Source: a virus
IMG/VR virus record: IMGVR_UViG_3300035698_035289
Coordinates: 1 to 24,296 of that record
Length of the DNA stretch: 24,296 bases
Strand: one strand, 5' to 3'
The notes under the pieces are model-generated. The model saw only the letters and a list, made by a program, of their open reading frames with translations, had not been told where the DNA came from and ran no database searches. The translations under genes were made by a program, and so were the position numbers. Positions 4,906 through 23,433 of the stretch are shown here, one piece after another (within the stretch, counting starts at the first letter, position 1; each line of letters begins with the position of its first letter).

Positions 4906-5991
4906 TTAGGTTCCCACCTTGACGCCGAATTGCGTGCCGTTGACGCCCGACGCCGTCCACGCGGAGGAGGTATCCGGGTCGGTTTCAAGAATCCGCGTGG
5001 CAACTTCATAGTCGTCCGTGGCGATATTGCTTGGCTGCCCGTCGCTGGTCGTGCTGCCAGACTTGGTCGTCTGATAGAGATCGATATCTCCGGGAAACTC
5101 GTTCATGCGAACGTCCGTGTTGACCTGCACACCAACAATCGGTTCGGTGGTGATCGTCGAGAGGTTGGCGTAGTCGTAGAGATCTTCCGCATCCTCGGTG
5201 TTGCTCTCGACATAGGACGTTTCATCGTCGGGCGGAATGTCGTCGACCATGTCATAGTTGTCGGTGCCGGAGGTGGGTGTCCAATCGCTGCTATCGCCGT
5301 CGGCACTGGGAAGTATGCCTTCGATGACAACCTGACCGAGAAAGTCGTTGTTGATCGGGCCATCCGTGTCGCAGATATAGATGTCGTCGATACACTGGTA
5401 GTAATTCTGAAGTTGAAACAACACGTAGCGGGAATCTGCGCTGCCGCGGGTGTCCACGCCTGAGCCGCCCAAGACGGTTTGGCCATCGATATGGATTTCG
5501 TAAGACCCGGCCGTATCGTGACAGACGACCTTCGCCTCCACATAGTGCCAGGTTTCGGACGCGAAAACCGGGTTGGCCGTTGTGGTCAGCAGGGTGTTTC
5601 CGCCACCGCAGGCAGAGATTTTACCGTCGGATGTCACCTTGATCGAGAAATTGTAATAGGGGGAACTATCTGCGTTGCCGATAACGAGGATTTCCTTGTT
5701 GTCGGGGAACGACGAACCGAATTTGACCGCCATGCCGACGATCCAGGTATCGCTGGTCGGCACGTCGTCGGAGGCAACCACATAAAAGAACCGCTGCGAG
5801 GAAGTGGGATAGGCGTACGCACCCTGCAGCGAAAAGCCGCCTTTGCGGCCGTCCGCCAATTTGGCCTGGTCGCAAACAGGGTAAAGCGTCAGCCCGTGAA
5901 AGTTCCCGTACTTCCGGTTCAACTGATCCCCGAGCGTCGTGCCGAGCGTCGTGCCGAGCGTCTCGAAACCTTCCATCCATCGTAGAGACAT
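4906..5991 (-). CDS. LamG/concanavalin-like phage tail protein, copy 2 (361 aa)
   Basis: A 361-residue protein with a jelly-roll (LamG-like) core at about residues 70-210: TWIVGMAVKFGSS, GNTLLTTTANPVF, a WHYVEAKVVCHD strand, IDGQTVLGGSGVD, and DDIYICDTDGPINNDFLG. This order is well known in phage LamG-like proteins that bind glycans or decorate the tail tip. The C-terminal half (SADGDSSDWTP, ETSYVESN, DPDTSSAWTASGVN) is conserved with the adjacent copy at 6010-7089, so the pair arose by tandem duplication. The start is preceded by AGGTGG. Near the N-terminus the sequence GTTLGTTLG is encoded by a short 12-base tandem repeat. No signal peptide. A glycan-binding role is inferred from the fold. 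Confidence 0.65.
   Translation of the reverse strand: MSLRWMEGFETLGTTLGTTLGDQLNRKYGNFHGLTLYPVCDQAKLADGRKGGFSLQGAYAYPTSSQRFFYVVASDDVPTSDTWIVGMAVKFGSSFPDNKEILVIGNADSSPYYNFSIKVTSDGKISACGGGNTLLTTTANPVFASETWHYVEAKVVCHDTAGSYEIHIDGQTVLGGSGVDTRGSADSRYVLFQLQNYYQCIDDIYICDTDGPINNDFLGQVVIEGILPSADGDSSDWTPTSGTDNYDMVDDIPPDDETSYVESNTEDAEDLYDYANLSTITTEPIVGVQVNTDVRMNEFPGDIDLYQTTKSGSTTSDGQPSNIATDDYEVATRILETDPDTSSAWTASGVNGTQFGVKVGT
5929..5964. repeat. 12-bp tandem repeat, three units
   Basis: Three consecutive units close to gccgagcgtcgt lie near the 5' end of the second LamG-like gene and encode repeated TLGT residues. The unit is a multiple of three, so copy-number change would keep the frame. The paralogue at 6010-7089 has a diverged segment of the same length here. 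Confidence 0.8.
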
Positions 5992-6009: not shown

Positions 6010-7089
6010 CTATGTGCCCGTCTTGATACCGAACTGCACGGCGTTAACACCCGATGCCGTCCATGCGGAGGATGTGTCTGGGTCCGTTTCCAAAACACGT
6101 TGGACCGACTTGTAGGAATCGTCAGCGATGTTTACCGCCGCGCCATCGCTGGTTGTGGTTCCCGATTTGACGGTCTGATAGAGATCCAGATCGCCGGGAA
6201 ATGCCGTCATCCGCGGCTCCGTCTTGAGCACGACGCCGAGAATGTCTTCGTCCGTAATCGTCGCCAGATTGGTGTACCCGTAGAGGTCCGTCTCGTCCTC
6301 GATATTGCTCTCGACATAGGACGTGTCATCGTCCGTTGGATTATCGTCGACCATAGCGTAATTGTCGCTGCCGGAGGCGGGCGTCCAATCGCTGCTGTCG
6401 CCGTCCGCGTTGGGAAAGATGGCCTCGACAAGGATCTGCCCGAGGAAGTCGTTGTTGGTTGTGCCATCCGTGTCACAGATATAGATATCGTCCATGTACT
6501 GGTAGTATTCGTCCATGCGGAAGCGGACGAATCGCGTGTCGGCGCCGGCGCGCGTATCAACATTTGTGCCGCTCAAGACCGTGACGCCATCGATACGGAC
6601 CTCGTAAGATCCGGTCGTATCGTGGCAGACGACCTTCATCTCGAAATAATGCCACTGATTCCGCGCGAACACGGGGTCGGCGGTCGTAGCAAGCAGCGTA
6701 TTTCCGGCTCCAGCCACGGAAACCTTGCCTGTATCGAGCAGCTTCAGAGCGAAGTTCCAGTAGCTGGTCGACGAGTTGGTGTGTCCAAGGACGACTACTG
6801 AGTTGCTGCTGGGAAAGGTCGAATCGAATCTGACCGCCACGCCGATGATCCAGGTATCGTTGGTCGGCACGTCGTCGGCAGCAACCGCATGGAAGAAATA
6901 CTGATAGTTGCTGTTGCAAGCTTTGGCGGAATACCCACCGTTGCGGCCGGTCGCCAACTGCATCGACGCGGCATAGTTGCTCAGCACGAGGCCGAAGAAT
7001 TCGCTGTATCTGCGATCCAAGCCGGTTTGGATTGTGTTGCCGATGGTTGCCCCGAACGTTTCGAACCCTTCAGCCAGTCGTAAAGTCAT
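6010..7089 (-). CDS. LamG/concanavalin-like phage tail protein, copy 1 (359 aa)
   Basis: A 359-residue paralogue of the next gene downstream (4906-5991). Both share the N-terminal EGFET segment, TWI(I/V)G, NTLLxTTA(D/N)PVFA, WHY(F/V)E(M/A)KVVCHDT, a DDIYICDTDG loop and a long C-terminal half ending with a SSAWTASGVN segment. The middle is a LamG-like jelly roll with an IDGVTVLSG strand. By eye the C-terminal halves are more alike than the N-terminal 70 residues, where receptor-contact or anchoring differences might lie. The start has AAGGA upstream. The gene follows a strong intergenic hairpin (7125-7158). The probable role is a tail-tip lectin or fibre component; this is inference from fold and location. 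Confidence 0.65.
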   Translation of the reverse strand: MTLRLAEGFETFGATIGNTIQTGLDRRYSEFFGLVLSNYAASMQLATGRNGGYSAKACNSNYQYFFHAVAADDVPTNDTWIIGVAVRFDSTFPSSNSVVVLGHTNSSTSYWNFALKLLDTGKVSVAGAGNTLLATTADPVFARNQWHYFEMKVVCHDTTGSYEVRIDGVTVLSGTNVDTRAGADTRFVRFRMDEYYQYMDDIYICDTDGTTNNDFLGQILVEAIFPNADGDSSDWTPASGSDNYAMVDDNPTDDDTSYVESNIEDETDLYGYTNLATITDEDILGVVLKTEPRMTAFPGDLDLYQTVKSGTTTSDGAAVNIADDSYKSVQRVLETDPDTSSAWTASGVNAVQFGIKTGT

Positions 7090-7825: not shown

Positions 7826-10800
7826 TTATAGAATAGACGTGCCACGGCGCAGTTCGCGGCGTACGCCGGCGGCGATGGTTCGCGCGGACTGACGGGCTGT
7901 TTCGTTACCGTTGACGTTTACGTGAATGTCACCGACGTTGGTGACCGGGCCGCCTTCCTGGCGGTAGACCGGCCGCACACCAGCATTGATGGCTACAAGC
8001 TGCGAGAAAAATTTTCGTGACGATCGAGCATTGACCACGAACTCGCCGGGCGAGAGCATGGCCGGAACCGTGTCAGTCCCTTGTGGAATACAACCGCCGC
8101 CTGCCAGTTTCCGCACCAACCCGCCCTTGGCCGAGGTAAGTATTGGCGTGGTCGGAATGCTCGGCATTGTGATCTGACTGCTCGCCCGGACCATCCGCTC
8201 CATCGCATCAGCTGTGGCCAGACTCAATTCGGCCAACGAGCGGGCGGGAGTTACAGTGTTTAGTAGATTCGACTGAAGATTACTGCTCGACGTGTTGTTC
8301 CGTTGCGTCTCCTCTCGCATTTTTTGGATAAACTGTTCCAATTCACGAAGCTGCTGCTGGCCGTCGCCGCCCGAGAACGGATTGTCGATCAGTGAATCGC
8401 GAAGCTCGAAGCTCTTCTTGAAGATGTCGAAGTTGCGGCTGAAAGCGGCCATCTCGGCGCTGGCCATGTCCAGTTTGCCCAAGCTGGCAACGAACACCTG
8501 GGCCCGCTGGGCTACACCCTCGAACACATCTTTTGTCAATTCGGAGCTTCCGCCGAGCGTGACCATTTCTCGGGTCAGCGACGCGATGCCTCGCTGCATA
8601 TCGTTGAGTTCTTGGTCCTTGGCACGATTGCCGAGAAACGCAAGAAACTCCTCTTCGCTGGCGCCGACCGGGCCGACACCGAGCCCACTGACATTGGCCT
8701 TCATGCGAGCGAAGTTGTAGCCCAACTCCGTTTGCACCTGCTGGGCCGTGCTTTGCTGCTGGATGAGCCTGTTGTACTTGCCGATCACGTCATCGACCGC
8801 CTCGCCAATCTTCTCGAAATCGCGGCCAAGTTCCGAATACTGGGGCAGGTTGAAGCTGAACTTCAAGTTGAGTAAGAGGTCATCCGTAGCGCGACGAATC
8901 TGATCATTCAAACCATCGAGTGCTTCCGGGGCTGCCCGAAGTGTGTTGATCTCTACCGAATCGAGTTGGCGGTTGAGGTTTTTGCCAAGATTTGCCAGGT
9001 CGATCACCCGGCCAACGTCGAGACTTTCGCTGGACAGTGCGATTTTCTGGAATTCGCGGAAGGCCGCCTGATACTCTTGAACCTGCTTGCGGCGTTGGTC
9101 GGCTGGAAGTTGCTTTCCATCGTCGTCGAACAGACTGGCCGACTCCTGCATCCGCCCGGACAGAACTTTGAGTCGTTCGAGATTGCGTTTCTCTTGATTG
9201 GCAAGCCGCTCGGCTTCTTGAGCACGCCGCTGCTGGGTCTGCTGTAGCCGTGTTTCGGCGACCAGTTGCTTTTGCAGCACGCCGCGAACCGCTTCGGCCG
9301 CCTTGGCTTCAAGCTGACGGTTCTTTGTTCGGTTGGCGATTGCGTCGGCCTGTTTTGCGAACCCGGACGCGCGGTCGAATTGGGCCAAGGCGTCGCTGAT
9401 CTGCTCGTCGCTCGTCGCCCCGGCCAACATTTTGGCAGCATACTCGGCGATCTGCTCGGATCGTTTGGCAAATCGGTCCAGTTGGCTCGTGTCGGCAAGC
9501 CGCCGGTTGTTTCTCTCGAAGGCATCGTCGGAGAGTTGGTCGCGGGCCGAGACACTCCGACGTTGCGACTGGTCGATCGCGGCCAGGGCATCCTCTTCCA
9601 TCTGCTGGAAGCGGCGAATGCGGTCCTCTTGAATCCGGATGATTGCTTCGGCTGTGCTCTTCGTGTTCTGGACGAGTTTTTCATTTGCCTTGGCGGCCGT
9701 GGCAATGCTGGTGTCGTATGCCGTATTTCTCGCCGTCACTTCCTTCTGAATTGCGGCCTGGATATTCTTGAATGACCCCTCGACCGTTTTGACTCGCTCG
9801 GCTTCAGCCTCGCGGAACTTCTTCATGTAATCGGCGACCAAGCCTCCAAACACCTCGTCGGCCTGGCCACGCTGATCCACAATCCAATCGCCGATCCAGT
9901 TGCCAACCGTTTTGGCACCCAGCCCCAGAGCCACGCCCAGCGAGAGTCCGCCGATTGCCTTGCTTGCCAATGACGCCTGTGTGGCGAGCGTTCGAGTCTG
10001 CACGGCCGCCCATGCCGCCTTGCCACCAAAACCTACCAAAGCGACTGCCCCGGCACCGATGACAGGAACCAAAGCCCGTGAAACCTGATACAGGCCCTCC
10101 GCGCCGCCGGTCGTGTCGAAAAACAGCCGAGTCGTTTTGACCAGGCTCGTCCCCAGCCCGGTCGTGAGCATGTTTTTCAGCTCGTTCAATTCCTTCGTCA
10201 CCCGCTCGACGTCCGTATCCATGATGGCCGTAAACTGATCATTGAGTTCAGTCAGATCCGTGCGGCCGAGTTCGGTGAGGCTTTTATTGTAGGCATCGGC
10301 GCCCGTACTGGTTAGTCGCAATACGGCGTTGAGACCACGCACTCGCGGAAAGAGTTTAGCAATCGAAGTCGTTGAGCCGTCGGTGGTCGAGATAACGGCG
10401 TTCATCACGCCCACGAACCCCAGCGCGGCAATCGCCTGTTCTGCCGAAGCGTATCCGAGTTTTTGGAACGCCTCTTTCATCGCGGTCGTCGGCTTGACCA
10501 TGCCCGTCATGGCGCCACGGATCTGCGTGGCCGCCTCAGCCGTTTTCACGCCGCCGATGGTCACGGCCGCGTACGACGCTTGCAGTTCTTCAAGACTCAC
10601 GCCAAGTTGCGCCGCCATTGGCGCGGTCCGCCCAAAGCTGACAGCCAACTCGCTCGCCCGGGTTCGACCCAGCTCGATTGTTTTGAAGAATTTTGCAGCC
10701 ACGTCCTCGGATCGGGAAGCGTCCATCCCAAAGGCGTTGAGCGTGCCCGTTAGGAGGTTCACTGAATCTTCGGTGCTGGCCACGGCGACTTTCGAGAACT

Positions 10801-11671
10801 TCATTGCGGTCGACAGCACGTCGACTTGATTGGCCGTGCCCTGAATCTGGTTAGAGATGACCTGGTAGTAACCTTCGCTCACGTCACCAAGTGGCTGGTT
10901 GAACTCGTCCGACAGGCCTCGGACCGTTGCGGCCAACTGGTTAAGGTTCTTGATCGGCGAGATGGTGCGGATCTCGGCAATCTGTCGTTGGAAGTCAAGC
11001 GAGTCGTTGTAGGCGTCGCCCAGGGCGTTGCGGACCATACTCAATGCCCGAACAATCGCCTGCGTGGCCACCACCCGAGCCATCGTTTCCCAACTGATCG
11101 TCAGGGCCTTGGTGGACCGGGTGCCCGTCTCGCCGAGCTTGCCGTAGGACTTTTCGACTCGCTGAAGCCCGTCGGCGATCTTGTTCTCCGTGCCGGTGAA
11201 GCTCTGGCCGAGGCCGTTTTGAATGCGACGCACGTCGTCCAGCGACTTGCCCGACCGCTTGGCATACTCGGCGACCTTCGTGGCTGCACTCTCAAACGCA
11301 CGTTTGTGATCGGTCCGGGCGATGGCCGGAATCTCAGCAAATTTGGCCTTAACGTTCGCCAGATGTGCCAGCACCGCATCGGCTTCCGAGCGGACCGACG
11401 CGGTCGTACCCGAAGTGCTTGCGGCCGAGCCGCCCATGGCAATGGCCCGTGCCCGAGTAAGCTTATCCAAACTAGCAAAAGCACGATCAGCGTTGCTCTT
11501 GATCTGCTTCAGCGCCCCGACCGTTTTGCCGGCCTGCTTATTAAAGAGATCCAGCCCTTTGCCGGTACCACCAACGGTTTTTTCGAATTTCGCCAGCACA
11601 CCATCCAACTCGCGCAGCGTAGCAAGTGCTTGCGCCGCGTCGAAGCCGAGTTGTTGGCGGATTTCTTCCAT
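7826..11671 (-). CDS. Tail tape measure protein (TP901 type, 1281 aa)
   Basis: At 1281 residues this is the longest gene of the window. The TP901-type core spans about residues 220-470: LDFQRQIAEIRTISP, ANQVDVLSTAMKFSKVAVAS, LTGTLNAFGM, and the ELAVSFGRTAPMAAQLGVS segment. Then follow hydrophobic stretches (about 533-597: VPVIGAGAVALVGFGG, LSLGVALGLGAKTVGNWIG), long Gln/Arg/Glu-rich coiled coil (about 620-850), and a typical C-terminal element KGGLVRKLAGGG...TDTVPAMLSPGEFVVN (about 1185-1220). This protein sets tail length and is passed into the host during DNA entry. By the usual rule of about 1.5 Angstrom per residue it would give a tail of roughly 190 nm, which points to a long-tailed siphovirus. 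The start codon has only a weak Shine-Dalgarno and lies 10 bases after the preceding stop, so translation may be coupled. Confidence 0.92.
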   Translation of the reverse strand: MEEIRQQLGFDAAQALATLRELDGVLAKFEKTVGGTGKGLDLFNKQAGKTVGALKQIKSNADRAFASLDKLTRARAIAMGGSAASTSGTTASVRSEADAVLAHLANVKAKFAEIPAIARTDHKRAFESAATKVAEYAKRSGKSLDDVRRIQNGLGQSFTGTENKIADGLQRVEKSYGKLGETGTRSTKALTISWETMARVVATQAIVRALSMVRNALGDAYNDSLDFQRQIAEIRTISPIKNLNQLAATVRGLSDEFNQPLGDVSEGYYQVISNQIQGTANQVDVLSTAMKFSKVAVASTEDSVNLLTGTLNAFGMDASRSEDVAAKFFKTIELGRTRASELAVSFGRTAPMAAQLGVSLEELQASYAAVTIGGVKTAEAATQIRGAMTGMVKPTTAMKEAFQKLGYASAEQAIAALGFVGVMNAVISTTDGSTTSIAKLFPRVRGLNAVLRLTSTGADAYNKSLTELGRTDLTELNDQFTAIMDTDVERVTKELNELKNMLTTGLGTSLVKTTRLFFDTTGGAEGLYQVSRALVPVIGAGAVALVGFGGKAAWAAVQTRTLATQASLASKAIGGLSLGVALGLGAKTVGNWIGDWIVDQRGQADEVFGGLVADYMKKFREAEAERVKTVEGSFKNIQAAIQKEVTARNTAYDTSIATAAKANEKLVQNTKSTAEAIIRIQEDRIRRFQQMEEDALAAIDQSQRRSVSARDQLSDDAFERNNRRLADTSQLDRFAKRSEQIAEYAAKMLAGATSDEQISDALAQFDRASGFAKQADAIANRTKNRQLEAKAAEAVRGVLQKQLVAETRLQQTQQRRAQEAERLANQEKRNLERLKVLSGRMQESASLFDDDGKQLPADQRRKQVQEYQAAFREFQKIALSSESLDVGRVIDLANLGKNLNRQLDSVEINTLRAAPEALDGLNDQIRRATDDLLLNLKFSFNLPQYSELGRDFEKIGEAVDDVIGKYNRLIQQQSTAQQVQTELGYNFARMKANVSGLGVGPVGASEEEFLAFLGNRAKDQELNDMQRGIASLTREMVTLGGSSELTKDVFEGVAQRAQVFVASLGKLDMASAEMAAFSRNFDIFKKSFELRDSLIDNPFSGGDGQQQLRELEQFIQKMREETQRNNTSSSNLQSNLLNTVTPARSLAELSLATADAMERMVRASSQITMPSIPTTPILTSAKGGLVRKLAGGGCIPQGTDTVPAMLSPGEFVVNARSSRKFFSQLVAINAGVRPVYRQEGGPVTNVGDIHVNVNGNETARQSARTIAAGVRRELRRGTSIL

Positions 11672-12188: not shown

Positions 12189-12251
12189 TGCCAGCGGTTT
12201 CCATAGCTTCTGTCGGGTGTCTTTAGTAAATCTTGCCGAATATACAATCGT

Positions 12252-12280
12252 TTGTCATGCCGCTATGCTCATGGTAGAAT
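12252..12280 (+). promoter_or_regulatory. Sigma70-type promoter reading into the antisense insert
   Basis: TTGTCA (12252-12257) and TAGAAT (12275-12280) are separated by exactly 17 bases; each hexamer differs from consensus at one position. It points rightwards, against the late operon, and would start transcription near 12287, upstream of the hairpins at 12307-12351 and the plus-strand gene at 12600. It is the best promoter match I noticed, though I did not scan the window systematically. Confidence 0.6.
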
Positions 12281-12302
12281 CTGGATGTCCAACATAAAGT
12301 AA

Positions 12303-12556
12303 TCAACCACGGCCATAGGCCGTGGCTTTGGCTTGCCCCGCCAAGCGGGGCGAAAATTTGAGTCTGAATGCGATGCATCACCGTTCAAAGGCTTTCACGA
12401 TTTGCCCGCCGTTGTCTCAATCCGCAACGGAAATTCCTTTGCAACACGCCGATTGTTTACGGTGCTGATGCTCAACACACCATCATTTATCGTTGAAATC
12501 ACGCCGGAACGGCAGAGCCTTTCAGGGTCGCACGGCCAAAGGCCGTGGGTTTATAA
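12303..12556. mobile_element. Palindrome-bounded IS200/IS605-like non-autonomous element (candidate)
   Basis: A roughly 250-base segment is bounded by near-identical short-loop palindromes: CCACGGCC-ATA-GGCCGTGG at 12307-12325 and CACGGCC-AAA-GGCCGTG at 12531-12547. A second hairpin GCCCCGC-CAA-GCGGGGC lies at 12335-12351. Subterminal hairpins at each end, with no usable inverted repeats beyond them, are the style of IS200/IS605 ends. Read on the minus strand, the left-hand part has two consecutive GC-rich hairpins followed by GGTTGATT, which resembles the 3' region of TnpB-linked omega RNAs. No transposase or tnpB is present, and a 79-codon plus-strand ORF inside looks like noise. Alternatively this is a structured leader RNA of the downstream gene. 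Confidence 0.4.
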
Positions 12557-12599
12557 CGTACTAATCCTGTAGATCATGAAAATAATTGGTGGGTGAGTG

Positions 12600-13058
12600 A
12601 TGGCACGATACAAAGAACAGTTAGAACGTGTGCGACGCTACTATAATCGCTTCAAGCAAATCAATAACGGGATGGAACAAACCTCGCCATCCGAAGAATT
12701 CATGGACGACATCTATGCATTCTTCCAGAACTGCTATCATCTTAAGGATTGGCTCATAAATGATTCCGCATTTACGAGATACACAGAATCAGAGATTGAG
12801 AAACACATAAAGAAAACGCCACCGCTTGCGATCTGCGCAGACATTTGTAACGCCTCCAAGCACCTTAAGCTCACAAGGATACGGAGTGGCGACAAACCTA
12901 TATTGGGAAGGAGAGTCATTAGTCTTGGCGTCACGACAGGGGGTGATGTTCCGACAAAAATTGCGATGCAAGTCGAATTTGAACACGATGGGAGAACATT
13001 GGATGCATTCCAAGTGGCAACAGATGCACTGAATTCGTGGGAATCCTTCTTGTCATAG
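12600..13058 (+). CDS. Antisense moron-like gene, conserved hypothetical protein (152 aa)
   Basis: The only convincing plus-strand gene in the window. It is visibly AT-richer than the phage genes around it, which suggests separate origin. It begins at ATG 12600 (a GTG directly precedes it at 12597) after GGTGGGTGAG. The protein is mainly helical: an N-terminal ERVRRYYNRF helix, then FFQNCYHLKDWL (about residues 42-53) and ICADICNASKHLKL (about 78-91), followed by a more strand-like C-terminal third ending ALNSWESFL. The NCYHLKDW and CNASKHL motifs occur, as far as I recall, in widespread uncharacterised bacterial proteins; the His-containing helices are loosely HEPN-like, but no RX4-6H nuclease motif is seen. 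Convergent with the tail chaperone and driven by its own promoter, it fits a lysogenic-conversion or exclusion gene. Function unknown. Confidence 0.75.
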   Translation: MARYKEQLERVRRYYNRFKQINNGMEQTSPSEEFMDDIYAFFQNCYHLKDWLINDSAFTRYTESEIEKHIKKTPPLAICADICNASKHLKLTRIRSGDKPILGRRVISLGVTTGGDVPTKIAMQVEFEHDGRTLDAFQVATDALNSWESFLS

Positions 13059-13113
13059 AATCATGCTCAGGATTTTATTTCTTTTCATGGTCAGCAACCC
13101 TTGTTCCCAGTCC

Positions 13114-14609: not shown

Positions 14610-15113
14610 TTATTCTCCGTTGGTTGAAAGGAAGAGGTGATATCGGGCATCGACGGCGCTTTGACGAATACGATCGTCCCGACTGATCTGTCCAAAGTGA
14701 ATCACGCGAACCGCGTCCCGCTTGCCGGAGCGAAGCGTGAGGCACCCGAGTAACGCCGCATCGTCTTCCGGCCCTTCTCCCCACTTAATCACGGAAATCG
14801 GGCCGGTAGCGGCTTGCAGGAATATGCCGGCTTGCTGCACAATGTCGTAGGCATTGCGGGTTTGCCCACCCATCATGCTGGTCAACAAAAGGTTTACGTC
14901 CACGTCGAGCCGAAAATATCCCCGGCTGAGTTCCGTTACGGCCGGGCCGTTGAGGCGAAATTCCACATGATCGTTCGCACGGATCTTCTCTGCTTCGCGT
15001 TCGTCGATTCCCTCGATCAGGATAGGCCGGTTGATCCCGCTCGCCACCTGCTTGAAGTAATCGGCAACCGAGGCGAATATCCATCGCGGCCAGTGTGGAT
15101 TGGGAATGTTCAT
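14610..15113 (-). CDS. Tail terminator / neck-like protein (167 aa)
   Basis: A 167-residue protein that begins MNIPNPHWPRWIFASVADYFKQ and continues with alternating strands (RPILIEGID, HVEFRLNGPAVTEL, YFRLDVDVNLLLTSM), a helix (YDIVQQAGIFLQAA) and a final strand DARYHLFLST. This strand-helix order, and the place directly before the tail tube gene, fit a tail terminator or minor tail protein that caps the tube at the neck. The start overlaps the upstream stop (ATGA), showing translational coupling. The family is not recognised with certainty. Confidence 0.5.
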   Translation of the reverse strand: MNIPNPHWPRWIFASVADYFKQVASGINRPILIEGIDEREAEKIRANDHVEFRLNGPAVTELSRGYFRLDVDVNLLLTSMMGGQTRNAYDIVQQAGIFLQAATGPISVIKWGEGPEDDAALLGCLTLRSGKRDAVRVIHFGQISRDDRIRQSAVDARYHLFLSTNGE

Positions 15114-15610
15114 TGTCGATTGGCTCCCGTCGCAAGTCCCAGCAGGCTATCGGCCGCAACCAGGTGGACCTGCTCGACGATGCGGCCCATCAGTTCCTTG
15201 CCGATGATGATCCAAGCTGCGCCGAACTCGAATTCCCAGATGGCCTTGATTTCGTAGCGGCGGCCGTTGTAGACCAGCCAGTCGTCGTTGGTGAATTCAA
15301 AACCCGCGGGCAAGTCGCGGGCGTCGATGATGAATTTACGAAGCCCGCTATCAAAGCTGCCGCCGTAGACGAACGCTTTGTTGGCCGAAATCTGCGAGAT
15401 GCTCTGGAGCACCTCTCGGCTGACCTTGACTGGCAAGACGATGGCCCGCCGGACTACGAAGACGTCCTTGTCGATCTGTTTGCGGCCGGTCCGCACGTCG
15501 GTCTCTGCGTCGTTGAGACGATAGACGCTGACCGTACCCCCATACTGGCGTTTGAGCGAGTACAGGGTCTGCTGAATCATGCGGTTGAGTGTGCGGTCGG
15601 CCGGGTACAT
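15110..15610 (-). CDS. Head closure / head-tail connector-like protein (166 aa)
   Basis: A 166-residue protein. After an N-terminal helix (LNRMIQQTLYSLKRQYGG) come strands VSVYRLND and DVFVVRRAIVLPVKVS, a helix with VLQSISQISANKAF, and then a strand pair of the form DWLVYNGRRYEIKAIWEFE with a final IIIGKELMG helix. The 'D-x-hydrophobic, NGRRYEI' hairpin is characteristic of small head-closure (connector) proteins, which attach to the portal-adaptor ring and stop DNA leaking. It sits two genes after the capsid protein and overlaps the next gene by ATGA. The call rests on pattern and order. Confidence 0.55.
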   Translation of the reverse strand: MYPADRTLNRMIQQTLYSLKRQYGGTVSVYRLNDAETDVRTGRKQIDKDVFVVRRAIVLPVKVSREVLQSISQISANKAFVYGGSFDSGLRKFIIDARDLPAGFEFTNDDWLVYNGRRYEIKAIWEFEFGAAWIIIGKELMGRIVEQVHLVAADSLLGLATGANRQ

Positions 15611-15953: not shown

Positions 15954-17372
15954 TTAGCCCTGAAGAACCACGGCCAGGTCCGGATCAAGCACGGCGACGC
16001 CGGCCAGGATGTCCATGTTGACGACCGTGCCCTGCTTGATGCTGTTGTATTGCATCGTTATCCGCATGGCGATGTCGTTGTAGGACGCCACGGCGGCCAT
16101 CACGCCCATCGATTGGTTGGGCAGCGCCAGCGGCCGGGTGACCAGGGCCAATGCATCGCGATGCAGCGCCAGATTCATGGCGCCGGCCGGACCGGGGAAG
16201 GCCAGATCGTTGTCGGCCAAGGCGGCTGCCAGCGGGCGGTCGAGCCAGATGACCCGATCAGCGCCGGACACTTCGGACTCGATCACCGTGTAGGTGTGGC
16301 GGCTGCCCCCGGTGCCGAACGAAACAAGCTGTCCGATCTGGAGCGGTTGAGTGAAGCCGTCGATCGTGATGCCCTTGGTGTAGTTGACGGGGTAGGCACC
16401 TTGGACGCTCTGGGCCTTGTACACGGTGATGGCCGCGCCGGCCTCGGTGGCAAACTTGTTCGCTTCGTGCAGCGTCACGGCCGTGGTGTCACCCGCGGCA
16501 ACAGTGGCTGCCGTGATGTAGGTGGGCTGGTCATTGCCGGCCACGATGGCGTATTCGCCAGCCTGTGCCTCGTAACCTGTGATGCCCACCGCCTGCGAGC
16601 CGGTTGCGCCGATGCCCGCGGCATTGGTCACGGTGCCGGTCGCCGCATCGGACGTACCGAGAGCGATATCGTTGACGTTCTGGTCCATCCAGGTGTCGAA
16701 ACCCAGGATACGGCCCAGTCGGGCGTCTTCCAAGGCCGTGCCGCCATCGCCGCGCTGGTCGGCCGCGATGAACAGTTCGTTCTTCAACAGCGCTGTCTCG
16801 CTGGCCGAGCCGAGCACCAGGTTCCGACCGGTGACCGGGGCCTTGTTATCGTTGAGCACCTTGCGAGCTTCGAGCAGATAGTCCTTAGAATTCGTCTCGT
16901 CGAGGTTCAACAGCCGCCCAACACGGCCGGCCGGACCGGCCAGGAACTTGTGAACCTGGCCCAAAACGGCGCGATCGACGCCGCGGGCGATGACCTGCAT
17001 GGCCGGCAACAGATAGATCGCCACCAGTTCCTGGAACGACTTGCTGGCCTCGCCGTCCTTGATCACAAACGAGTTGTAGATGTGCTGGTCGAGCGGAACC
17101 TGCACGTTGGTCGAACGGGCGTCTTGCGTCTCGACATCGTCGTCATCCGTCTTGCGGCGGATCTTGAAGCTGGCTGGCTGTCGCGTATTGACCACGTCGC
17201 CGAACTCACGGACTTCGTCCTCGAAGTCGCGGTGGACCATCGAGGCGGCCACCATGTTCTCTTCCAGGATCGCCAAGCCCTCCTGCGCCCATCGCTCGGG
17301 AATGTAGGCGTCGTTGTCGTTGGCATAGCAGGTCGAGACGGCTTCAGACAGGTAGAGAGAATTTATCGTCAT
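15954..17372 (-). CDS. Major capsid protein (HK97 fold, P22 coat-like)
   Basis: A 472-residue protein following the scaffold gene. Residues about 25-140 (ERWAQEGLAILEENMVAASMVHRDFEDEV, then GDVVNTRQPASFKIRRK, and SFQELVAIYLLPAMQVIARGVDRAVL) look like the N-arm, E-loop and spine helix of an HK97-type coat protein. Residues 396-472 (AGAMNLALHRDALALVTRPLALP, then IAMRITMQYN and VNMDILAGVAVLDPDLAV) resemble the C-terminus of P22-type coat proteins. An inserted beta-rich portion lies at about 245-395, including a module similar to one in the tail tube protein. The first 21 residues carry the LYLSxxxxTCYxN motif also found at the start of the scaffold. A GGAG site lies 9 bases before the ATG. Capsid identity is firm; the exact family is less so. 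Confidence 0.85.
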   Translation of the reverse strand: MTINSLYLSEAVSTCYANDNDAYIPERWAQEGLAILEENMVAASMVHRDFEDEVREFGDVVNTRQPASFKIRRKTDDDDVETQDARSTNVQVPLDQHIYNSFVIKDGEASKSFQELVAIYLLPAMQVIARGVDRAVLGQVHKFLAGPAGRVGRLLNLDETNSKDYLLEARKVLNDNKAPVTGRNLVLGSASETALLKNELFIAADQRGDGGTALEDARLGRILGFDTWMDQNVNDIALGTSDAATGTVTNAAGIGATGSQAVGITGYEAQAGEYAIVAGNDQPTYITAATVAAGDTTAVTLHEANKFATEAGAAITVYKAQSVQGAYPVNYTKGITIDGFTQPLQIGQLVSFGTGGSRHTYTVIESEVSGADRVIWLDRPLAAALADNDLAFPGPAGAMNLALHRDALALVTRPLALPNQSMGVMAAVASYNDIAMRITMQYNSIKQGTVVNMDILAGVAVLDPDLAVVLQG

Positions 17373-17452: not shown

Positions 17453-18313
17453 TTAACGACCCTGCTTTGGCTTGAGACCGAGAAGCTCAGGGTTCTTCTC
17501 GCGGATCTCGCGGTACTGCGTGGGCGACAGTTTTCGCACGTCGATCTGGCCGTTGGCGCCCGCCGCCAGGCCGCCGGTTGCCGAATTGCCGCCGATGCCG
17601 CTAACGACGCCGCTCTTAAAAAGGTTCCCATACAGATCGGGTAACTCCTGCATCCGCTTCACGGCGTTTTCCGGTGTCCGTTGCGTCATCACCGATTCGC
17701 CCGTCTCCAAATCGACGTCGGCGAAATCGATCATCGGCTCGAACTCACCAAGCCCCCGTCCCTTTTCGTCGGTCTTCTCGACCATCTTGGTCATGGGCCG
17801 CAACATGGCGATGACCTGCGACGGGTTGTACGCCTCGTGCGAAACGGCCGCATCCTGCAATGCCCGTGAAATGGTCGATTCCATGTAGCGGTGCTGCCAC
17901 ACCTCGTACTGTTTCTCGGCGTCGGCCAATCGTCCACTATACTCCTCTTCAAGCTTCTTCCGCTCATGGGCCGCCTGCTGCTCCTTCGTGCGATATTGGG
18001 CACGCAGGTTTTCTAGCGATTCTTCCAGCCTGTTGCGGTCGTCCTTGCTAAGGCTCTCGTTTTCCAGGAGTTGCTGGTACGACTGCTCCAGCGATTCATA
18101 CTTCTCCTGGTGCTTGCGGCGGTCGGACGCCATGAACTTGTTGACTTCTTCCTGCGTGAAACGGCGGTCAGGGTCTTCGTGGCCATCGAGCTGACCACCA
18201 TCAGCACCGGCGTCTTGCATGGTGTTTTCGGCTTGTGAGCCTTCGCCCGCATTGTCGGCCTCGTTGTCGTAACAAGTGGCAATCGGGTCGGAGAGGTACA
18301 GTTCGCACAACAT
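17453..18313 (-). CDS. Capsid scaffolding protein (286 aa)
   Basis: A 286-residue, highly charged, mostly coiled-coil protein directly upstream of the major capsid gene, the classical place for a scaffold. The order is an N-terminal motif LYLSDPIATCYDN (residues 5-17), an acidic linker, RRFTQEEVNKFMASDRR (about 50-66; this 'FTQEEVNK' start of the helical region is common in phage scaffolds), then long Glu/Gln/Arg helices to about residue 145. After that come a short folded part and a Gly-rich region, ending in a basic tail (TQYREIREKNPELLGLKPKQGR) that could bind the coat protein. It would direct procapsid assembly and then leave or be degraded. AAGGA stands upstream of the start. No protease gene is visible nearby. 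Confidence 0.75.
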   Translation of the reverse strand: MLCELYLSDPIATCYDNEADNAGEGSQAENTMQDAGADGGQLDGHEDPDRRFTQEEVNKFMASDRRKHQEKYESLEQSYQQLLENESLSKDDRNRLEESLENLRAQYRTKEQQAAHERKKLEEEYSGRLADAEKQYEVWQHRYMESTISRALQDAAVSHEAYNPSQVIAMLRPMTKMVEKTDEKGRGLGEFEPMIDFADVDLETGESVMTQRTPENAVKRMQELPDLYGNLFKSGVVSGIGGNSATGGLAAGANGQIDVRKLSPTQYREIREKNPELLGLKPKQGR

Positions 18314-18331: not shown

Positions 18332-19786
18332 CTAAGAAACCCTACTTAATCGAATGGCGTCGTCGTCCCGAAGGAACGGTCTCAGGTGCCGCCACGCCAA
18401 TACGTTGGGCACACCGTTGACAATATGTTCGATCGGGACATGGGCGCGGGAGTAGGTTGTCCGCACCGACGCATAACCCTGGGAAACGATCCCCAGATTT
18501 TCTAATTCCAGTTCAGGATCCTTGCCATCGAGCAAGGAATGGGCAATCTCATAACAGGCAATTCGTATCGCCTCGGGAACCTCCGTATCAGCACCGCGAG
18601 GGAACTCCAACGGTTGCCCGGCTTCGGCTGCGCGAATCGCTTCATCGCTTGCGCCCGAGCCGAGTGTATGGACCGAGTGCTTGCGGCCTTTGAAATTCAG
18701 CGTGTCGATCACCAGTGTCGCCGCGCGCAACGCCCTGGGACGGTCAATCGGCCTGGCCTGCGACCAGGCATGCTCGTGCAGCCGCATGGCAAAATAGTCC
18801 GCCGCTTCCTGAAGCGAGCCGTAGGTGTCTTGGGTGATTCCCTTGGGCTTGGGTGGATCCGTCGGTTGTGGAGGACTCGCCGGGCCGATCTTCAACACCT
18901 CGGTGCTATCAAATGGAATCCCATAAATCATTCCGCTTGGCGCCAGGACGGCACCTTGCCATTTGTTGGTGCCGGCAAGATTCCCGAAGATCAACGCGGT
19001 TTCGGTCACCGGTTCGATCTTCAACACCCCGGCGGCATTGTGAGGAACTGCGTAGACACAACCATTGGAAGCCAAGACGGCGGCGTTCCATTTATTGGTC
19101 CCGGGAAGGTTGCCGAAGGTGGACGTGGTGTCGGAGGCGGAGTTGATTTTCAGCACCCGAGTGTTGTCTCTGGGAATTCCGTAGATGATCCCATTTGGCG
19201 CCAAGACGCCGAAGGCCCACTTGTTGGAATCAGTTCCCAGGCTGCCGAAAGTGATTGCCGTATCGGCGGCCGGATCAATCTTCAATACCGCAGTGTGGTT
19301 TTTTGGAATTCCATAGATGCAACCGTTGGGCGCCAGAACGCCGTCAAACCATTTGTAGGATCCGGAAAAGTTGCCGAAGGTGGTCACCGTGTCGGTTGCC
19401 GGATCGATCTTCAAGACTTCGGTGCTGTTGTAGGGAATCCCGTAAATGCAACCGTTTGCTGCCAAAACGCCGCCGAGCCATTTGCTTGTACCGGGCAGAC
19501 TGCCAAAGGTGATGATGGTGTCATTGGTGGGATCGATTTTCAGTATCTCGGTGCTGCCAAACGGAATCCCGTAGATACAGCCATTTGGTGCCACAACGCC
19601 TGTAATCCATTTGTTTGTCCCGGCCAAGTTGCCAAACACGGACGTGGTGTCGGTGGCGGGATCGATCTTCAACACTTCCGTGGCGTAGTAGGGAATCCCG
19701 TAAATGCAACCATTGGGAGCCAAAACGCCGCCGACCCACTTGTAGGTTCCCGCGAAATTCCCGAATGTGGAGAGAGTGTCAGTCAT
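18332..19786 (-). CDS. Seven-repeat propeller fused to DnaT-like connector protein (484 aa)
   Basis: The start is the ATG at 19786, overlapping the portal stop by 8 bases; upstream in-frame sequence is only portal shadow. Residues 2-303 are seven 43-44-residue repeats with consensus TDT..FGN.(A/P)GT.KW..(G/A)VLAPNGCIYGIP...TEVLKIDPA, strongly suggesting a seven-bladed beta-propeller. A Pro-rich linker (PPQPTDPPKPKG) joins a C-terminal domain of about 165 residues: YGSLQEAADYFAMRLHEHAW, ALRAATLVIDTLNFKGRKH, LEFPRG, VPEAIRIACYEIAHSLL. That order is typical of the DnaT-like family found between portal and capsid genes, thought to be a head-tail adaptor. Such proteins are normally about 150-190 residues, so the propeller is an addition. 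It may decorate the virion neck or bind a ligand; this is inference. Confidence 0.7.
   Translation of the reverse strand: MTDTLSTFGNFAGTYKWVGGVLAPNGCIYGIPYYATEVLKIDPATDTTSVFGNLAGTNKWITGVVAPNGCIYGIPFGSTEILKIDPTNDTIITFGSLPGTSKWLGGVLAANGCIYGIPYNSTEVLKIDPATDTVTTFGNFSGSYKWFDGVLAPNGCIYGIPKNHTAVLKIDPAADTAITFGSLGTDSNKWAFGVLAPNGIIYGIPRDNTRVLKINSASDTTSTFGNLPGTNKWNAAVLASNGCVYAVPHNAAGVLKIEPVTETALIFGNLAGTNKWQGAVLAPSGMIYGIPFDSTEVLKIGPASPPQPTDPPKPKGITQDTYGSLQEAADYFAMRLHEHAWSQARPIDRPRALRAATLVIDTLNFKGRKHSVHTLGSGASDEAIRAAEAGQPLEFPRGADTEVPEAIRIACYEIAHSLLDGKDPELELENLGIVSQGYASVRTTYSRAHVPIEHIVNGVPNVLAWRHLRPFLRDDDAIRLSRVS
18878..19783 (-). repeat. Seven tandem ~129-bp repeats (propeller blades)
   Basis: Seven in-frame repeats of 129 bases (one of 132) encode residues 2-303 of the fusion protein. 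Conserved anchors in nearly every unit are FG, KW, NGxIYGIP and VLKI. The first four units are most alike; units 5-7 have drifted more (the sixth has YAVP in place of YGIP), consistent with duplication followed by divergence. Confidence 0.9.
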
Positions 19787-21587
19787 CGACCGGATCCTTC
19801 CCCACGCCACGCGTACGGTCCGTCGTCGTATCGTGGAGCGTGTTGTCGAGCGATTCGGCTTTTTCCTCACTGCCGGCCCCGGCCGGATCGGCCGAAAGGT
19901 CGTCAATACCGCGAGCGGCCGGGTCGCTGTTCTCATCGTCACTGCTGTCGTTACTGCTCTGTGCCGCCGCAATTCGCAGGATGCGTGCCGAGTGGTCTTC
20001 GCGAGCGGCCAGATGTTCCCCTTCATCGAAGCCCAGCGCCACCGACGCCGTTTTTTCGCCCACCAGCCCGGCGTTCTTGGCGTCGATGATCACCTTGGGA
20101 TCGCTGGTGGTGTAGTGCGAAGCGTCGATCTCGCGGTGGATCGCTTCGACCCGTTCCACACTCACCTTGCCGGCCAGCAACACGGTGACGATGTTCTTGG
20201 CGATCTCGCGTTTCACCGTTCGGCCGGGCACCGTATGCATCAGCTTGGCCAGTTTGTCGGCCTCGACGATCCGCTCTTGGTCCGACTTCAGACTGTAACG
20301 ATCCGGGTATTTTATTGTTGCAATCTGCCGCCGGGTCGGGCGACGTTCCTCATAAGCGGCCCAGAACTCGGCAATACGCCGCTCGGCGCTTTCCAGCACC
20401 AGTCCGATATACGATAGCCCTGCTTCGAGCCCCTGGTTATCCATCTGCTTCGACTCGGCCGAAACGCGGGTCGCAAGGTTCACCACGGCCAGGTTGACCA
20501 GCTTGCGAACGTCTTCCTCCAACTTCGCCTGGAGTTTTAGCGACGCTTCGAGCGGTTCCGACGGCGGCGCGATAAACGCCGGCGCGTTGGCCTTGATGTC
20601 GTATGCTCGACCTTGAGTGGAACCCACCTTGATGTCCGTGTCGGCCGCGCCCTGACCGCCCTGCGTGGCCGTGCCATCAGCGCTGGCCGCAACTTTCAAG
20701 TGCCCGCCGACCGCCCGGAGGTCGCGCTGTTCGATGTAGAACGGGAAATTGGCCTTGAGGGCATGGTTGACGTCGCTGGAGCCGAGATTCAATAACGCGA
20801 TCTGGTGTTGGCACACGTCCTTGATGAGACTGTCGCCAATGTCGAGCATCACGAAGGGGATGCGGTCCAGCTCGAGCTGCACGGGGCCGGCCGTGTTACC
20901 GTCGCGGTCAATCGGCTTGCCGCTGGTGTCGTAGAGCTGCAAGTTGACCTTGCCCGTCGCCGGGTCGATCCACAGCAGCCGATAGCGCTGAAAGGTTTGT
21001 GTGGGCAAGCCCGTCCGCTCGTCGCAGTCGAGGCAAGAGTCCCGCAACAGCAGCGATTGGAACTCGGATGGCTCTTCCGGTTTCGAGCAGGCCCACGACA
21101 GAATGTCTTCCACCTGATAGCTGTACAGATACGGCCGCCGCCCGCTGGCATCGGCCAGTGTGCCGATCCCTTCGACGACCGGGTGGTCTACATACACGCC
21201 CACGCGGCCCATCACCAATAGATCGGTCAACACCTTCATGCCCAAAAAGGCGGTCATTGTCAAACCGCGACGATCAACACCGCCATCCAGCCCGGCCACG
21301 GCTCGCATGTAGGCACCACTGCCACCGGTCCGCAGCACGTCGTTCATCCGCTGATAAATAGAATTGCGGATGTCGTTCACGGCCGCTTTGGCAAAGGCCG
21401 GGATCGGCGTCACCGTCCTGCGGCTATTGAAATCGCCTTGCTCTTCTCGGGCGCTGAACTGTTCCAGATACTTGTCACGGAATTCGTCCCCGCCGCGGTA
21501 GGTCACCCGCCACTTGGCCCAGTCCGACATGCAAGACAGGTAGTTCGGGTGCCGACTGTCGATGATATTATTGGTGGGCTGTTTCAT
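19779..21587 (-). CDS. Portal protein (DUF4055-like, 602 aa)
   Basis: A 602-residue protein directly after the large terminase gene. The N-terminus (HPNYLSCMSDWAKWRVTYRGGDEFRDKYL) with the W-RV-YRGGDE arrangement is typical of the DUF4055 family, whose members serve as portals. The middle includes GMKVLTDLLVMGRVGVYVDHP and RPYLYSYQVEDILSW. Residues about 400-470 hold the long helices expected of the portal stem and wing (RKLVNLAVVNLATRVSAESKQMDNQGLEAG, SAERRIAEFWAAYE). The last about 60 residues are acidic and Ser-rich, ending GVGKDPVDD. The portal forms the dodecameric ring that docks the terminase and later the connector. Its stop codon overlaps the next gene's start. Length fits the family. 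Confidence 0.75.
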   Translation of the reverse strand: MKQPTNNIIDSRHPNYLSCMSDWAKWRVTYRGGDEFRDKYLEQFSAREEQGDFNSRRTVTPIPAFAKAAVNDIRNSIYQRMNDVLRTGGSGAYMRAVAGLDGGVDRRGLTMTAFLGMKVLTDLLVMGRVGVYVDHPVVEGIGTLADASGRRPYLYSYQVEDILSWACSKPEEPSEFQSLLLRDSCLDCDERTGLPTQTFQRYRLLWIDPATGKVNLQLYDTSGKPIDRDGNTAGPVQLELDRIPFVMLDIGDSLIKDVCQHQIALLNLGSSDVNHALKANFPFYIEQRDLRAVGGHLKVAASADGTATQGGQGAADTDIKVGSTQGRAYDIKANAPAFIAPPSEPLEASLKLQAKLEEDVRKLVNLAVVNLATRVSAESKQMDNQGLEAGLSYIGLVLESAERRIAEFWAAYEERRPTRRQIATIKYPDRYSLKSDQERIVEADKLAKLMHTVPGRTVKREIAKNIVTVLLAGKVSVERVEAIHREIDASHYTTSDPKVIIDAKNAGLVGEKTASVALGFDEGEHLAAREDHSARILRIAAAQSSNDSSDDENSDPAARGIDDLSADPAGAGSEEKAESLDNTLHDTTTDRTRGVGKDPVDD

Positions 21588-21597
21588 GAATGACTCG

Positions 21598-23304
21598 TTA
21601 CAAGAACGACTTGATATCTTGATTAGTCTCTCGGGCCGCTACCAGCGGCAGGGCGATCTCGGCGTAGGTTCGGGCGTGGGCAAAATGGTCGGGGCCGGTC
21701 GAAACGAACGTGGCCACAACGTTGCCGCCACTTTTGGCTTGTTTGTCTTTCGTTGAATCCTTCTTCTCTCGCTCGTAGGTGCGAACCGGCGCTTTCAGGT
21801 GTTCTTGATATTCGCGCGAGACATCACGGGGCAGAACGATCCGACGCGGTTGCCGTAATCTGCCCAGCGATGCACTCAGCCAGTTGGTCCGATCCACCGT
21901 AGCCAGCGGCGCCCCATCGCCGTCGTCGGTGATCGAGATCTCTTTGGCGGTTACACCCCGCCGATAGCGGCACAGCCACACGTAGCCGGGGAACCGCTTG
22001 GCGAACCGCCGCGCTTCCATCGGCCAGGGGTCGGCGTCGATCACACAGGCCAGCACTTGCCATTCCCGCATCAGTTCGTCGAGCCGTTGGTCCCATTCGT
22101 TTTCGTAAAACTTGCCTTCCCAAAGGACCTTGGCCGTGGCCGCCACGTTCAAGTCCTGCGAGTAGCGGTCGAAGAACCACTCGCAGATTTCCACGTACGA
22201 CCATTTTCCCTGGTCGACGCCCATCGTAATGATCCGCTCGCCGCCCATCTCCGGCCGTGGGTCGTCCTTGGTGTGGTTGCGGATGCACGCCTGCAAATCG
22301 TCGTCGGTGACCTTGGCTCCATCGCCAATGAATGGAACGCCGAGTTTCGAGTTGTGGAATTCTTTGTTGGCCAGCTCGTCGCCAAAACCGCGGAAATAGG
22401 CAACCACCAGTTCGCCGGGCGTGACCGTGAAGCTGTACAACTGATTGATATGAAACCCACGAATATCCGGGTTGGCATTCTTCGCCATTGCGTTCCACGT
22501 GCCCGTGCCCAGCCAATCGGGCTTCGTCTCGTGAACGAGCTTGTGCTTGCACTGCTTGCACTTGAGGAACGATTCGTGACAGCGAATGTCGGCCACGTGT
22601 TCCCCGATGATCTCCACGCAATCGGGCCACACGAACTCCGTCCACCGCGAGCAGCACGGGCACTGAAACACAAAATGCTCTTGCGTGCTCGTCATGTAGA
22701 GCTTGTGGATGCCGTAGTTGGGGATGGTCGGCGTCGAGATGCCCCAAACGTGCTTGTGAACCTGACCCGAAAGCCGCTCCAAAGCCAGCCAGATTTGTTT
22801 TTGATCCATCTCGTCTACTTCGTCGAGGAATAATTCCGAGACGGGAATAGACTTCAAGTTGCTGTCGCCGCGCGAGCCGCGGATGTAGAGCGTGTTGGCG
22901 CCGGCCTGTTTCAGGTTGACCGTGTTGGTGTCCGTGAAAATATCGGCCAGCTTGGGGCTCAGCGCCAACGCCGTGGCAAACCGGGCTTTGCTGAAATCGC
23001 TCGCGTTCAGGGCAGTTGGCAAAACGTAGAGCACGTCGCGCCTCAGCTTGTCGAGCACGTAGAGCGCCCGGTTGATTGCTACCTCCGTTACCCCGGCCTG
23101 CGCCGACTTCATGGCGTAGTTGAACGACGCGCTGGAGTCGTGCATCTCGCGACTCCAGGGATGGTAGGTCCACGAGTAGGGCCCGGGGAACGGCTCGCCC
23201 ATAACGCGACGGTTGGCCGCCCAACGCGAGCAGCTCGTCAACGACCGGTCTGTAAGACCGTCCGCGATGGATTGCCGAAGTGCGTTGATCAGGTTGCCTA
23301 CCAT
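21598..23304 (-). CDS. terL: Terminase large subunit, GpA type (568 aa)
   Basis: The start was moved to ATG 23304 (MVGNLINAL), which has GAGAGG just upstream; further upstream sequence lacks a ribosome site. The ATPase half has a deviant Walker A (KSAQAGVTE, residues 66-74) and a Walker B (ELFLDEVDEM, 157-166). A zinc-binding-like insert follows: CPCC at 215-218 and C249/C252, as in GpA-type terminases. The nuclease half carries MGVDQG (D364) and VIDADP (D423/D425), candidate metal-binding aspartates. The enzyme packages DNA into the procapsid through the portal encoded next downstream and cuts it. No small terminase subunit is recognisable; one of the two small upstream proteins may fill that role. 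Confidence 0.88.
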   Translation of the reverse strand: MVGNLINALRQSIADGLTDRSLTSCSRWAANRRVMGEPFPGPYSWTYHPWSREMHDSSASFNYAMKSAQAGVTEVAINRALYVLDKLRRDVLYVLPTALNASDFSKARFATALALSPKLADIFTDTNTVNLKQAGANTLYIRGSRGDSNLKSIPVSELFLDEVDEMDQKQIWLALERLSGQVHKHVWGISTPTIPNYGIHKLYMTSTQEHFVFQCPCCSRWTEFVWPDCVEIIGEHVADIRCHESFLKCKQCKHKLVHETKPDWLGTGTWNAMAKNANPDIRGFHINQLYSFTVTPGELVVAYFRGFGDELANKEFHNSKLGVPFIGDGAKVTDDDLQACIRNHTKDDPRPEMGGERIITMGVDQGKWSYVEICEWFFDRYSQDLNVAATAKVLWEGKFYENEWDQRLDELMREWQVLACVIDADPWPMEARRFAKRFPGYVWLCRYRRGVTAKEISITDDGDGAPLATVDRTNWLSASLGRLRQPRRIVLPRDVSREYQEHLKAPVRTYEREKKDSTKDKQAKSGGNVVATFVSTGPDHFAHARTYAEIALPLVAARETNQDIKSFL

Positions 23305-23433
23305 CTGGCCTCTCGTTGGGGAATCGCACGCCCGAGTGGCAGACGAGCAGCAAAACGGCAATCGTTGATTGGAACATAGGGGCGATCGTTTCGGATTAAG
23401 GTCTCATTCGCTTTCAAAACGTTTCCACTAGTG

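Follow-up and report, generated by a model that had tools for sequence, protein, structure and literature searches.

A single open reading frame on the minus strand of a 24.3-kb viral contig (IMG/VR record IMGVR_UViG_3300035698_035289, whose 24,296 nucleotides are referred to here as the window) encodes a 484-residue protein in which a seven-bladed beta-propeller is joined to a head-tail adaptor domain of the Ad1 type. The fold and the fusion are well supported, and the same fusion is found in 13 further contigs from 11 metagenomes (L002-L014). We infer that the propeller binds the host, and we consider it likely that the protein is a subunit of the neck ring with its own adhesion module, the propeller serving as the host-binding head of a multi-copy neck collar. 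Neck adaptors are usually seen as conserved plumbing; in this group of phages, which is tied to Planctomycetota, they bear domains that resemble variable binding heads, and little is known of the phages of Planctomycetota and their receptors.

Architecture of the fusion protein

The fusion gene (18332-19786, minus strand) and the portal gene share an 8-nt overlap. Its start at 19786 is supported because the ATG is preceded, 8 nt upstream, by a GAAGGA Shine-Dalgarno sequence (19795-19800, minus strand, read from the sequence), and a homologue, L004, has an in-frame stop just 5' of the equivalent ATG. The encoded protein consists of a propeller (residues 1-302; 18881-19786), a disordered Pro-rich linker (residues 303-318; 18833-18880), and an adaptor domain (residues 319-484; 18332-18832), all read from the minus strand. 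The first-pass annotation had described seven repeats of 43-44 residues set ahead of an adaptor domain by a Pro-rich linker, and this layout is borne out by a repeat HMM, Pfam, and PHROG. The single-repeat HMM counts seven repeats, which begin at residues 6, 49, 92, 135, 178, 222, and ~265 with a spacing of 43 or 44, and the region matches DUF6923 (PF21959, 'repeat of unknown function') at 44.5 bits against a gathering cut-off of 27, the best stretch being residues 27-139. A literature search found no papers on DUF6923.

An AlphaFold model of the full protein, built from a 42-row alignment, has a mean pLDDT of 85.7. Residues 3-302 are modeled as 28 strands, four per repeat, mostly with pLDDT >90; the linker, PASPPQPTDPPKPKG, is rich in proline and predicted to be disordered at residues 303-317 (pLDDT <50), and the residues that follow it are helical. 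In Foldseek, seven-bladed virginiamycin B lyases rank first among solved structures (TM 0.86-0.88 of target); the propeller shares just 12-14% identity with them. The structure prediction proposed with the earlier annotation has thus returned a propeller fold, modeled with high confidence as a closed ring of seven blades. Among viral models, the Hokovirus HKV1 collagen-repeat protein A0A1V0SG21 matches best (40% identity, 1.0 Å rmsd, 312 columns), which points to a binding module common to phages and protist giant viruses. The earlier suggestion that such repeats occur mostly in microbial eukaryotes is favored in part by this protist giant virus propeller, although most of the relatives found here are phage proteins.

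The number of blades is strongly conserved: of the 68 complete propeller ORFs from a wide scan, some of them near-copies, the repeat HMM counts seven blades in 67, and the distant proteins of Vibrio and Cylindrospermopsis phages also have seven repeats each. Because seven recurs in nearly all complete relatives, the count exceeds what chance would give. Among the fused homologues, L014:5582-6514 has three repeats only, and L013:1-1386, at a contig edge, shows the blade order 3-4-3-4-5-6-7; these odd blades may reflect repeat recombination or collapse in assembly. Across an alignment of diverse propellers, the invariant columns include Gly, Trp, Tyr, Pro, Lys, Leu, and Asp, and none is His or Glu. 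The scaffold residues of the blade are near-fixed, and positions 10, 13, 28, and 32 are the most variable, a pattern that would fit a scaffold with a tunable face.

The adaptor domain and its neighborhood

Two profiles match within residues 319-484, DnaT_2 (PF20557; residues 319-448, 28.7 bits against a cut-off of 27) and phrog_477, 'head-tail adaptor Ad1' (residues 319-423, 8e-13; 1e-18 for the adaptor of L015). 'DnaT-like' is only a family name, and none of the present evidence suggests that the protein binds DNA. The adaptor family comprises 48 sequences, its gene holding a fixed place ahead of the scaffold gene in a portal-to-tail module that also includes Hc1 and tail completion genes. 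An adaptor-only model is helical (pLDDT 82); a fold search with it gave no PDB match, and the adaptor profile matched no PDB sequence, so the assignment to a ring rests on the PHROG profiles and synteny. No rival adaptor gene was seen in the related loci. The extra gene between the major capsid protein and Hc1 was rejected as the true adaptor; it usually encodes a small holin-like membrane protein. Taken together, profiles and gene order argue strongly for a neck position of the fusion protein.

The neighboring genes of the window, all on the minus strand, encode a gpA-type terminase large subunit (21598-23361; PF05876, 2e-30, and phrog_675), the portal protein (19779-21587; phrog_145, 1.4e-33), a scaffolding protein at a conserved position (17453-18313; phrog_206, 1.3e-5, and PF06810, 1.5e-4), and a P22-type major capsid protein (15954-17372; PF11651, 8.7e-25, and phrog_283). 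A probable head-closure protein, Hc1, lies at 15110-15610, as suggested by its homologues, its position, and a weak phrog_161 match (0.17; 0.025 for the L125 homologue). The tape measure protein (7826-11671; PF10145, 7e-22, and several PHROG tape measures) indicates a long-tailed phage. Downstream of it lie tandem phrog_2448 paralogues (4909-5991 and 6013-7089, minus strand), candidate tail-tip receptor proteins, the second of which weakly matches a polysaccharide lyase (5.7e-5). Between the tail genes, 12240-13060 is without a clear minus-strand gene and contains plus-strand ORFs of 153 and 79 aa.

Known Ad1 proteins have ~100 residues and are not known to carry a propeller, and the earlier remark that DnaT-like phage proteins normally lack one holds for the adaptors of the related phages. 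Some adaptors bear different N-terminal domains, of 135 aa in L024, 256 aa in L055, and 356 aa in L089, where the domain opens with five KLYLQSGQF repeats. Among the titles and abstracts listed by literature searches on propellers together with necks or connectors, none describes a propeller-adaptor fusion.

Conservation and origin of the fusion

In a quick tree of 88 propellers, all 13 adaptor-fused rows form one clade with a support of 100, beside stand-alone propellers encoded in the slot before the adaptor; in sequence terms, the fused form is a conserved clade of one origin. Between pairs of fused genes, the median dN/dS falls from 0.135 in the propeller to 0.107 in the linker and 0.064 in the adaptor. 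The earlier annotation had named an error of assembly as what might undo the fusion, and an artefact of assembly or annotation joining two genes could be imagined from L015, L063, and L076, where propeller and adaptor are separate neighbors; in L015 and L063, the propeller gene stops a few bases ahead of the adaptor start. Since the other contigs carry the same joined frame, at a synonymous divergence of ~0.6-0.75 and with purifying selection running across the linker (dN/dS ~0.11), we reject this explanation and regard its chance as negligible.

Typical stand-alone propellers have ~60 extra N-terminal residues and end with SRxFNKF, and several of those in the slot open with a KPLVLNGGxxQxL motif that occurs on other slot proteins too. 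The fused form has neither of these ends, and on the simplest reading it would have arisen by their loss. The ancestor would have been a separate virion protein gene between portal and adaptor, which lost its N-terminal anchor and C-terminal tail and was joined in frame to the adaptor to give the one-gene version.

A variable slot between portal and adaptor

Dozens of related loci share the gene order terminase-portal-[slot]-adaptor-scaffold-MCP. Counted over related loci that are not all independent, the gap between portal and adaptor exceeds 300 nt in 43 of 64 cases, as against 5/51 between terminase and portal, 6/90 between adaptor and scaffold, and 5/83 between scaffold and capsid; the portal-adaptor slot is an insertion hotspot. 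Its occupants (79 proteins) include Collagen (11), CBM_5_12 (6), and glycosyltransferase (2) matches and single cases of a concanavalin-like lectin, a depolymerase C-terminal domain, and polysaccharide lyase 14 (PL14), and their PHROG matches are dominated by tail-fibre families. These contents point to adsorption. In some related phages, the same propeller occupies the slot as a separate gene; in several others the slot is empty, so the module is dispensable.

Directly before the adaptor gene, L060:5797-6984, L090:1-1128, and L091:5821-6975 are glycosyltransferase-like genes. The slots of L060 and L091 hold fibre genes, and the glycosyltransferase-like products perhaps glycosylate the fibres. 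L100:6568-7968, in a prophage of a Planctomycetota MAG, encodes a slot protein with a different repeat, GFYGGVFDGRFVYFVPN, which may be another propeller.

Propellers and extensions on other neck proteins

The propeller also follows a second type of neck protein. In L124, it stands after a head completion protein Hc1 (PF05521, 1.1e-15), the N-terminus of the L146 protein is very similar to that of L124, and in L125, L132, L157, L160, and L162, the propeller comes after a homologue of the probable Hc1 of the window. The propellers of L120:5029-7053 and L124:5188-7074 are 98.7% identical and their next genes 97% identical, whereas their N-terminal domains differ, that of L120 matching no PHROG or Pfam family; near-identical propellers on different N-terminal domains show recent movement of the propeller module or of its anchor.

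Other extended proteins were seen in these loci. Homologues of Hc1 and of tail-completion-like proteins carry C-terminal extensions of ~370-460 aa (L162:7002-8786, L022:4617-6494, L101:11432-13282, and L038:10320-11900). L027, L037, L053, L056, L157, and others encode two adjacent paralogues of a putative tail tube protein, the second with an inserted domain of ~90 aa and a GGPWTVEF motif.

Host

Two Planctomycetota MAGs carry adaptor relatives on long contigs (G002:C1 and G003:C76), and each of these contigs also encodes a PSCyt2 domain, which is typical of planctomycetes. Some related phages are integrated in Planctomycetota genomes, and planctomycete bacteria are the hosts of the nearest relatives for which a host is identified. 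A Pirellulales MAG contains an adaptor that is 93% identical, on a short contig that could be a binning accident. Integration is rare, since one carrier was found when 294 Planctomycetota genomes were searched for the adaptor. For the phage of the window itself, a planctomycete host is probable from these relationships.

Proposed function and alternatives

In the model that we infer for the ring position, copy number, exposure, fusion direction, binding role, and ligand of the propeller-adaptor protein, the C-terminal domain would behave like SPP1 gp15, which forms a ring under the portal with its C-terminus inside the clip (PMC9701221): after packaging it would join a dodecamer under the portal and insert its own C-terminus into the clip. 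Up to twelve seven-bladed propellers, one per copy, would then surround the neck on flexible Pro-rich tethers, and a free N-terminus on a tether, with the adaptor at the C-terminal end, would suit display outside the ring. We estimate that twelve propellers of ~45-50 Å need a circle of ~95 Å radius, which the extended 16-residue linker could plausibly reach. The propeller would be an interchangeable surface-binding head, its target most likely glycans or proteins of the host envelope or capsule, and it would raise the odds of productive contact as an ancillary to the tail-tip receptor-binding proteins. Since relatives have fibres and sugar-binding proteins in this position, the neck probably acts as an extra host-gripping collar. 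It counts against adhesion at the neck that the genes downstream of the tape measure include further candidates for receptor-binding proteins, and that the propeller has a low dN/dS, with no sign of positive selection.

The dominance of purifying selection speaks for another reading, in which the propellers brace or seal the neck or the head-tail joint without binding the host. T7-like tails contain beta-propeller nozzle proteins (gp12), and there are weak fold matches to P22 gp10-type proteins; however, the window has a separate candidate stopper in Hc1, the propeller sits on a disordered tether and is absent from many relatives, and collagen, CBM, and lectin proteins fill the slot in others. 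We hold such a structural collar to be unlikely. Less probable still is attachment to mucus, particles, or biofilm matrix in place of the host cell. The collagen fibres and CBMs of the slot belong to the same class of module, and a related propeller sits on a giant-virus collagen-repeat protein. Nothing specific counts against such targets; sequence hardly distinguishes binding to them from binding to the host. It is very improbable that the propeller is an enzyme, like the fold-related lyase, with the host surface or a small molecule as its substrate: the top PDB match is to virginiamycin B lyase and one slot protein matches polysaccharide lyase 14, yet the identity to the lyases is low, and the invariant columns of the propeller alignment include neither His nor Glu, the conserved catalytic residues of the lyase. 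For want of such catalytic-type residues we set this reading aside.

Host binding by a neck-borne propeller remains the reading that we prefer; if it is true, neck-based host contact can be tested with a single recombinant domain. More tentatively, and with some doubt, we suggest that in this Planctomycetota-linked group the neck may be a docking platform, whose Ad1 and Hc1 rings gain host-binding heads by fusion; the propeller would move among neck, tail, and giant-virus collagen-repeat proteins, and about twelve propellers would form a second adhesion device.

Comparison with known systems

The same seven-repeat domain occurs in the DUF6923 propellers of Vibrio and Cylindrospermopsis phages, but its carrier is the protein that follows the tape measure (Vibrio) or a 1130-aa protein whose C-terminal part it forms, and not an adaptor. 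The Hokovirus protein, from a protist giant virus, has the same propeller joined, by its name, to collagen repeats and likewise not to an adaptor. The tail nozzles T7 gp12 and P22 gp10 resemble the fusion protein in placing a propeller fold close to the portal. They make up the nozzle as such, whereas here a separate Hc1 candidate is present, and no sequence relation to them was found. With the Ad1 proteins SPP1 gp15 and HK97 gp6 (PMC9701221, PMC4362835), the fusion protein shares a gene place near the portal, a helical domain, and the PHROG Ad1 profile; it differs from them in being encoded between the portal and scaffold genes.

The closest working counterpart is the neck passage structure of lactococcal 936 and TP901-1 siphophages, which, like the proposed collar, is located at the neck, multi-copy, and equipped with exchangeable carbohydrate-binding heads; these CBM heads bind host cells weakly and in many copies (PMC6669499). 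Its domains are shuffled (PMC10684548), and its gene, like the propeller, is variable and absent from some phages of its group. The neck passage structure is formed by a protein of its own, which combines a BppU-like N-terminal domain with coiled-coil fibres, whereas the AlphaFold model of the fusion protein consists of propeller, linker, and helical adaptor, with no BppU-like ring domain and no long helix for a coiled-coil fibre, and the propeller is covalently part of the adaptor.
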